Made by a program: the position numbers and the translations under genes
Shown here: in pieces, positions 11,166 through 12,634 of the stretch
Numbering within the stretch: the first letter of the stretch is position 1
Layout of the letters: every line of letters starts with the position of its first letter
Assembly (NCBI GenBank): GCA_018970395.1
Contig: JAGWWM010000001.1
Location: 1 to 64,000 of the forward strand
DNA: 64,000 bases
Direction of reading: 5' to 3'
DNA from: Bacteroidota bacterium
Lineage (GTDB): Bacteria > Bacteroidota > Bacteroidia > Chitinophagales > Chitinophagaceae
The notes under the pieces: model-generated
Databases searched by the model: none
What the model was told of the DNA's origin: nothing
Seen by the model: the letters and a program-made list of their open reading frames with translations, nothing else

Positions 11166-12233
11166 TTACCGAATCACAATCTTCCTGTTCTCCCTAACCT
11201 CTCCCTTACCATTAATCAGCTGCACAAAATACACCCCTTTAGCGCTAAAGGAAGAAAGAGCAATGGTAGAGATCCGCTGCGTGATATTGCTTTGAAATAT
11301 CTGCTGACCAACAGGATTAATCACTTTCATTTGATAGCCGGATAAAGTATTGATATTTCCGAAGTCAATGGTGAGTTGTCCTTGTGATGGATTGGGATAA
11401 ATTTTGATGGTATTTTCATAGGTGATGGGGTTGAAACTGGTAATAGTGGAATTGATAAACAAGGTATCCGTTACCGATACATTCTGAAAGCAGATATTGC
11501 CATTATAAAGATTTTTGATCTCCTGCTCGGATAAGGCGCGATTCCAGATGGCGATGTCGTCGAGTTTTCCTTTTAAATACCCGATTAAATTATTTGCAGG
11601 ATCTCTTGTTCCAATTAAAAGGGGGGAATTGTTTGAAAGCAAGGAAGAAAAACCTACTGCATATTCGCTATATAAAACTCCATTAATATAAATACTAATT
11701 TTCCCATTATTTAAAACAGCAGCCGTATGAAACCATTTAGAAGATTCGGCATTGATATTATAATTTGTTGTGCCATAAGCGTAATAACCCGGTCCGCCTG
11801 CAGTAAATTGCATTGTACCATTATCTCCTCCATTTCTAAAAATAAACTCATAACCAGAACCTGCTAAATATCCTCCTTTTGATATCCCCTTGTATTTATC
11901 ATCATTTAGATCATTATTTGAATTGATCCACAATGAAATTGATATTTGTTTGCCGGTAATGTTCAAGGAATTACTATTGGGAATAGAAATTAGATTATCT
12001 ACCCCATTAAAAAAATATGCTCTCCCGGAGATCCCAAATCTGTCCGATGTTAACGTAGCCCCATTCACCGTCCCATTATTTCCATTGCCGCTTTCATCAT
12101 TGGCATTTCCGTTGAAAGGCCACCAGCCAACCAGGCCGTCTTTAGTGACATAGGAGGGAATGTTTTGTGCGAGTGTTGTTTGAGCAAACAAGAGCGATAA
12201 AACTGCTGTGAGCCCGAGTAATCTATTTTTCAT
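11166..12233 (-). CDS. LamG/concanavalin A-like domain protein with T9SS type A sorting domain
   Basis: Signal peptide; DGLVGWWPFNGNANDESGNGNNGTVNGATLTSDRFG (LamG); C-terminal IKIYPNPSQGQLTIDF...GVYFVQLINGKGEVRENRKIVIR. Confidence 0.9.
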   Translation of the reverse strand: MKNRLLGLTAVLSLLFAQTTLAQNIPSYVTKDGLVGWWPFNGNANDESGNGNNGTVNGATLTSDRFGISGRAYFFNGVDNLISIPNSNSLNITGKQISISLWINSNNDLNDDKYKGISKGGYLAGSGYEFIFRNGGDNGTMQFTAGGPGYYAYGTTNYNINAESSKWFHTAAVLNNGKISIYINGVLYSEYAVGFSSLLSNNSPLLIGTRDPANNLIGYLKGKLDDIAIWNRALSEQEIKNLYNGNICFQNVSVTDTLFINSTITSFNPITYENTIKIYPNPSQGQLTIDFGNINTLSGYQMKVINPVGQQIFQSNITQRISTIALSSFSAKGVYFVQLINGKGEVRENRKIVIR

Positions 12234-12252
12234 TTTATTTGGTTTTTCTACT

Positions 12253-12417
12253 CTGTCCCGCAGTAGGTGTTGATAAAAAAATCAGCGTGGGACAGTTGCC
12301 TTCTCGCACAGGTGGGAGTCGAAGCCCAAGAAGCAGAGTAAAGCAAAGCCCACGCCTTGACGTGAGCGTTGTGCTTAATACTCCCTGCTTCTTTAGAATT
12401 TTCGACTTTTCCTGTGC
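12253..12417. ncRNA. candidate structured element: 43-nt hairpin plus 112-nt multi-segment hairpin
   Basis: CTGTCCC...GGGACAG (12253-12295). Nested complementary segments in 12306-12417: GCACAGG/CCTGTGC, AGTCGAA/TTCGACT, AAGAAGCAG/CTGCTTCTT, AGTA/TACT, AAGCA/TGCTT, CACG/CGTG. Confidence 0.5.
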
Positions 12418-12556
12418 AGGATTTTAGCAAACGCTAATAAGATATGTCAGCTTTCGCTGTTTAATTTATTCGATAATGATTTGTTTTAATAGTTCAAAAA
12501 TAGGTAAAAGTTGCTGCTTAACGGTTATCGGTTGTATAAAGAACGCTTCGATTAAA

Positions 12557-12634
12557 GAGATGTTTCGCTACCGCTCAACATGACGTCCTGTCCTTTGCGA
12601 GCTTTGCCTCTTTGCAGCTTTGTGTGAAATAATC
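12557..12634 (+). repeat. dispersed intergenic repeat, copy A
   Basis: AGAGATGTTTCGCTACCGCTCAACATGACG...GCTTTG..TGTGTGAAATAATCA; resembles copies at 43120-43190 (+) and 45985-46075 (-). Confidence 0.65.

Follow-up and report, generated by a model that had tools for sequence, protein, structure and literature searches.

A pseudoknotted RNA family of the Bacteroidota, probably a switch-like leader that spreads between unrelated genes

The hairpins at positions 12253-12417 of the window (the whole stretch of 64,000 nucleotides analysed here, from a Bacteroidota bacterium) together form one member of a family of large, pseudoknotted RNAs, not catalogued before, that occurs across the phylum Bacteroidota. 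Our preferred interpretation, to which we assign a probability of about 0.62 and which we draw from sequence comparison, is that the window copy is a cis-acting leader RNA on the minus strand, placed before a LamG/T9SS gene, and that the phylum-wide family behaves as a switch-like, portable cassette. In general terms, the family is best read as a cis-regulatory leader that is indifferent to the gene it precedes, spreads horizontally and has a putatively bistable fold.

A sequence-only reading of the window had described a rod of six nested complementary segments with a second hairpin beside it. All six segments and their complements were located in the correct order. The outermost pair was GCACAGG (12306) with CCTGTGC (12411), followed by AGTCGAA (12317) with TTCGACT (12401), AAGAAGCAG (12328) with CTGCTTCTT (12385), AGTA (12337) with TACT (12379), AAGCA (12341) with TGCTT (12372) and, innermost, CACG (12351) with CGTG (12361). 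For the second hairpin, the outer arms CTGTCCC (12253) and GGGACAG (12289) and the inner segments TGAT (12271) and ATCA (12281) were present, but the inner TGAT-A6-ATCA formed no true stem; it is part of the strand termed D below and of the conserved U-run, viewed from the opposite strand. The distance to the minus-strand LamG/T9SS gene had been given correctly, with the gene start at 12233. The claim that so much pairing exceeds chance also held, with folding energy z-scores of -5.5 on the plus and -5.1 on the minus strand and none of 200 dinucleotide shuffles as low. Composition or chance is thus ruled out as the explanation, because the fold is far more stable than the 200 shuffles on both strands. 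The element functions on the minus strand of the window, where the full leader gave a folding z-score of -5.7 against dinucleotide shuffles. The described segments are real, but the element is bigger than had been proposed, with further strands at 12430-12438, 12448-12461 and 12248-12252.

On the minus strand, the parts of the RNA follow one another from 5′ to 3′ as a 5′ hairpin, strand A, the 5′ arms of helices P1, P2 and P3, strand B, a loop, strand C, the 3′ arms of P3, P2 and P1, strand D, a U-run, strand E and the start codon. Upstream of the RNA, a Bacteroidota -7 promoter box, TATTTTTG (TAnnTTTG), was located at 12495-12502; the box is enriched across 158 loci. The small 5′ hairpin, ACAGC GAAA GCTG (12448-12461), was recognised from the sequence and from the alignments, in which the stem of relatives differs in sequence and retains its self-complementarity. 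Strand A, ATTAGCGTT (12430-12438), pairs with B in a pseudoknot (A:B). The 5′ arm of P1, GCACAGG (12411-12417), pairs with 12306-12312, the 5′ arm of P2, AGTCGAA (12401-12407), with 12317-12323, and the 5′ arm of P3, AAGAAGCAG (12385-12393), with 12328-12336. Strand B, AACGCTCACG (12361-12370), pairs either with C, forming the apical hairpin P4, or with A. Strand C, GGCGTGGGC (12348-12356), has B (P4) and D (pseudoknot C:D) as its partners. The 3′ arm of P3 occupies 12328-12336 and that of P1 12306-12312, and between them lies a local GGG..CCC hairpin (12314-12327), the loop of which is the 3′ arm of P2 (12317-12323). Strand D, CTGTCCCACGCTGAT (12281-12295), pairs through its 3′ part with C and through its 5′ part with E. 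The conserved U-run (12275-12281) lies immediately 3′ of D, and strand E, GCGGGACAG, follows at 12253-12261. A possible extra pseudoknot, S2, would join CTACT (12262-12266) to AGTAG (12248-12252); this complementarity (12248-12266 overall) was seen in the window and in several close relatives. The gene itself, encoding a LamG (Laminin_G_3) protein with a T9SS sorting tail, spans 11166-12233, and its start codon is 48 nt past D.

No Rfam model matched the window at gathering score (Rfam 15, 4,227 models), and no relevant Rfam match was obtained in 18 loci of relatives at E-values up to 5 or 1. A search at the nucleotide level detected matches in 18 of 399 genomes of the order, and 13 of these sequences were used to build a covariance model, R1, whose E-values are rough. 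R1 detected about 160 full-length copies in 100 of the 399 genomes, with one to six copies each and 47 of 165 genera represented, and copies in 57 of 397 genomes sampled across the phylum. Searched for in GTDB contigs, the exact core AACGCTCACG-N4-GGCGTGGGC gave at least 110 stretches, almost all of them titled as Bacteroidota (among them Flavobacterium, Pedobacter, Sphingobacterium, Capnocytophaga, Chryseobacterium and Prevotella), with Ignavibacteria in addition. When 83 of the exact-core loci were searched with R1, 82 matches were confirmed, one of them, on a Ruminococcus contig, only marginally. This Ruminococcus match (L172) scored 27.7 bits and is probably due to chance, and a core match at 93 bits in a metagenome-assembled genome labelled Mycoplasmatota (L202) probably lies on a mis-binned contig. 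Applied to the copies with their flanking DNA, R1 returned 92 matches in 91 loci (755 kb, E up to 1e-6) and no stray matches. Many of the loci come from metagenome-assembled genomes, and their open reading frames were called mechanically. A phage or plasmid origin was considered and rejected: the window element had no match in collections of phage and plasmid records, the copy from an ICE-type element had none in plasmids, that from a viral contig had none in phages, and the core was present in only three viral contigs.

The helices were examined in an unsupervised scan of all column pairs in 92 aligned copies, which placed P1, P2 and P3, and then C:D, B:C and A:B, among the top helices. C:D and A:B are no artefact of fitting, because both are absent from the alignment model. 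Pair counts, which for the modelled helices lean towards the structure in the two alignments (A7 and A8) fitted to a model holding P1, P2, part of P3 and P4, gave 95.2% of cells paired, against 67.7% in shuffled controls and 36-43% when the partners were slid, with changes on both sides in 33 of 37 pairs. The unmodelled helices are independent of the alignment model, and compensatory changes in P1 and P2 were already present in the first, unfitted alignment. B:C was paired in 99.2% of cells, a helix that is not independent in A8, whose sequences were found through the exact B-loop-C pattern. P1, P2, P3 and C:D emerged once more from 69 non-redundant sequences that were analysed separately. P2 was almost purely Watson-Crick, with one G-U among 644 cells, and in the 3-bp hairpin that holds its 3′ arm in the loop the third pair covaried (UA 43, CG 29, GC 7). 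A:B is supported by fewer changes than P1-P3, given the high conservation of strands A to D. A closing helix A:D found no support as a separate helix and is rather a by-product of A:B and C:D. Both the covariation among homologs and the conservation outside the source genome, whose lack the sequence-only reading had named as grounds for giving it up, are therefore seen in the family.

A:B and C:D are incompatible with B:C, so that the RNA has mutually exclusive folds, in which B pairs with A or with C, and C with B or with D. The predicted energies of the competing helices were nearly equal, -13.5 kcal/mol for the P4 hairpin and -14.6 kcal/mol for C:D. Moreover, D is complementary in its 5′ half to E, which usually ends 26-35 nt further on, and this pairing exceeded that in shuffles or with other loci.

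Of 91 loci, 85 have their nearest downstream gene on the strand of the RNA and 6 have it in the opposite direction, and the start codon lies at a median of 54 nt past D. The TAnnTTTG box is enriched upstream of the RNA, with 95 occurrences against 39 ± 6 in shuffles and 25 on the other strand, and was found in 69 of 159 upstream regions, as against 2 of 159 regions separating the RNA from the gene. A U-run (at least 5 T in 8 nt) immediately follows D in 78% of the copies. The own promoter box and the U-run after a GC-rich strand would also suit a stand-alone, trans-acting small RNA running from the upstream promoter to the U-run that follows D, the gene being a mere neighbour or reached by read-through. 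Such an RNA would agree with those loci in which no gene starts within 130 nt (in 37 of 174 loci no ATG-started frame of at least 45 aa begins within that distance, although some loci end too soon). Nevertheless, we consider it unlikely, if the foremost of the alternatives: the same-strand start codon stands, at most loci, at a near-constant short distance with no promoter between, E lies past the U-run and is complementary to D, and no shared target is known.

RNAs that are 92-99% identical were found amid unrelated flanks (L158/L208 at 99%, L230/L195 and L115/L140), and a set with 92-99% identity (L028, L025, L184 and L185) precedes LamG, FISUMP and other genes in different families. In a sister species, an ECF sigma factor ortholog with 72% identity is not preceded by the RNA. 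The occurrence of near-identical RNAs amid unrelated flanks implies that the RNA passes as a unit from gene to gene and from species to species; judged from these comparisons, it is gained and lost independently of the gene, sometimes together with the promoter region. Some copies adjoin genes of conjugative or integrative elements, which suggests these elements as one route of movement. At L178, L181, L206, L215 and L223 (Sphingobacterium, Pedobacter, Chryseobacterium and Allomuricauda), near-identical RNAs lie between excisionase-like HTH and response-regulator-like genes, and these loci probably represent one conjugative-element family. We also observed IS1595-type transposase genes (family assigned by eye) 1-2 kb from the RNA at L049, L051, L059, L063 and L069.

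The source genome holds one further full copy, on contig C72, directly upstream of a paralogous LamG/T9SS gene. Its flanks, small hairpin and apical 26 nt are near-identical to those of the window copy, whereas both arms of the long stem are of other sequence with their complementarity retained; the flanks are 95 and 84% identical and the central part 60%, and the copy folds with a z-score of -4.2. A programmed diversification of the stems, which this copy had brought to mind, was rejected after an all-pairs comparison of copies gave no second such pair, and block exchange or gene conversion is the more likely origin of the replacement. A third LamG paralog, on contig C11, has no element, and its start codon adjoins the DNA that is found beyond the RNA in the other two. 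Direct repeats resembling AAAAC-CAAAT border the insertion in the source genome, but the DNA there is AT-rich. Positions 12557-12582 of the window belong to an interspersed repeat (GAGATGTTTCGCTACCGCTCAACATG). When as many as 3 mismatches were allowed, the source genome contained 43 copies of the repeat, whereas the reversed control gave none; two or three of the copies lie beside the LamG paralogs on C72 and C11.

The near-identical RNAs with unrelated flanks, the patchy distribution, the empty paralog and ortholog and the exchanged stem block could also come from a selfish or passive element, that is, a small non-autonomous element or a retro-copied RNA that lands before genes and is kept by chance, with a structure serving its own movement. 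We find this explanation improbable, and it comes second among the alternatives, as the copy number is low (one to six per genome), orientation and spacing to the start codon are consistent, and the loci yielded neither a shared transposase or reverse transcriptase nor a proven target duplication.

The genes that follow the RNA share no function. A scan of 114 downstream proteins gave 72 Pfam families, none present in more than five proteins, and a common downstream function was accordingly rejected. The proteins include response regulators, ECF sigma factors, T9SS-tail, LamG, FISUMP, PKD, collagen-like and kelch proteins, TerD, and DNA methylases of the type III restriction kind. Mod-like methylase genes of type III restriction-modification start 26-30 nt past the RNA in three different genomes (L081 4854, L085 4596 and L144 4371). 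The diversity of downstream genes weakens the interpretation as a metabolite riboswitch, for which it would be unusual. A more specific proposal, which we put forward tentatively, is that the RNA is a gene-agnostic mobile switch that has its own promoter, senses one general signal through the exchange between pseudoknot and hairpin, and acts as a plug-in controller of accessory genes, its central stems being replaceable as blocks. The genes so controlled would be those of surface adhesins, restriction-modification methylases, sigma factor/SusCD operons and conjugative elements.

Roughly one in three copies in the order has a small divergent HTH gene upstream of the RNA. Divergent genes of the XRE type or of other HTH types lie directly upstream at L091, L099, L102, L113, L131, L140 and about 25 more loci, and fall into several unrelated families. 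A protein-binding leader controlled by such a divergent XRE/HTH gene, RNA and regulator forming one module, would account for this arrangement; we regard it as very improbable, given that the HTH genes are of unrelated families and are missing at most loci, the window included.

The strand on which selection acts was examined through the wobble pairs, as a G-U pair on one strand is an A-C mismatch on the other. On the gene-sense strand, C:D had 79 G-U cells against 1 A-C, and P4 had 99 against 1. The retention of G-U and not of A-C on the gene strand indicates selection on the gene-sense RNA and argues against a single-stranded-DNA substrate. Of the latter proposal in the sequence-only reading, the DNA mechanism falls with this asymmetry, and the mobility stands in part, through the near-identical RNAs in unrelated flanks. 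Its other proposal, a structured ncRNA or 5′ leader, is borne out by the compensatory changes in relatives, by the same asymmetry and by the promoter box, which occurs upstream and almost never between RNA and gene. At the level of sequence, orientation, distance, promoter and the G-U test together fit a 5′ leader on the sense strand, as expected of a riboswitch. A recombination site or single-stranded-DNA hairpin of the integron attC or IS200/IS605-end type was rejected, since the equivalence of G-T and A-C did not hold (79 vs 1; 99 vs 1). A DNA-level structure (a cruciform, recombination site or single-stranded-DNA substrate), to which the long inverted repeats and the loci immediately after tyrosine recombinase genes might point, is scarcely credible, being already contradicted by the one-strand tolerance of G-U and opposed by the pseudoknots and by the promoter and leader position.

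If the leader is a switch, the B:C-paired form would be one state and the form with A:B and C:D the alternative one. The C:D helix adjoins the U-run and could thus create a terminator-like state or a state that controls the start region, with D and the U-run holding the place of a terminator's 3′ half, as in the logic of an attenuator. The alternative pairings are present in the RNA, and the U-run and E suggest an expression platform that might act on termination or on translation. A GC-rich helix followed by a U-run, as in an attenuator, is provided by C:D, but not as a local terminator hairpin: a distance of about 55 nt, which includes the 3′ arms of P3-P1, separates C from D. The RNA might also control translation, because C:D is a long-range pseudoknot and E would act after the U-run. 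The D:E pairing beyond the U-run would not be needed for simple termination, a point against the preferred interpretation. Whatever stabilises one of the folds, be it a small molecule, a protein, temperature or another RNA, would turn the gene on or off. The promoter and the RNA together would form a portable cassette, set before many unrelated accessory genes by horizontal transfer. We must also note that the competing pairings might represent successive stages of folding instead of a regulated switch.

In its four strands with exclusive neighbour pairings (A:B, B:C and C:D) and a U-run directly after the fourth, the RNA resembles the trp-type attenuators. It differs from them in that no leader peptide was noticed, that the strands lie within the large P1-P3 rod, that C:D spans about 55 nt as a pseudoknot, and that the genes downstream do not form biosynthetic operons. 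Riboswitches for second messengers, such as c-di-GMP-I (GEMM), are compact leaders before many unrelated genes, including those of surface proteins and mobile elements. The RNA described here shares the compact structured leader and the unrelated genes with c-di-GMP-I, but it matches no Rfam riboswitch and spreads between genes as a unit. The Rfam scans, which presumably included the Flavo-1 model, gave no Flavo-1 match in any scanned locus of the family. The Flavo-1 motif of Flavobacteria (PMC2864571; see also PMC9723704) is likewise a Bacteroidota RNA motif whose position did not reveal its function. Palindromic candidate RNAs from Bacteroidetes of human microbiomes, some of 106-132 bp and near phage, TPR or TonB genes, are similar in size and host group and stand among thousands of listed candidates (PMC8040213). 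The RNA was not found described in the open literature, and an unnamed partial entry among supplementary computational candidates is possible.

To our knowledge, few regulatory RNAs have been reported in Bacteroidota, the accessory surface proteins, restriction systems and conjugative elements of which are central to gut and environmental ecology. The present family, absent from Rfam, adds an RNA that combines two pseudoknots with a clear alternative fold and of which several hundred copies can be detected, and it lends itself to direct tests. Should it prove to be a switch that answers to a common signal, many unexplained accessory genes would be tied to one input, and its spread before unrelated genes would make it a natural portable RNA controller.
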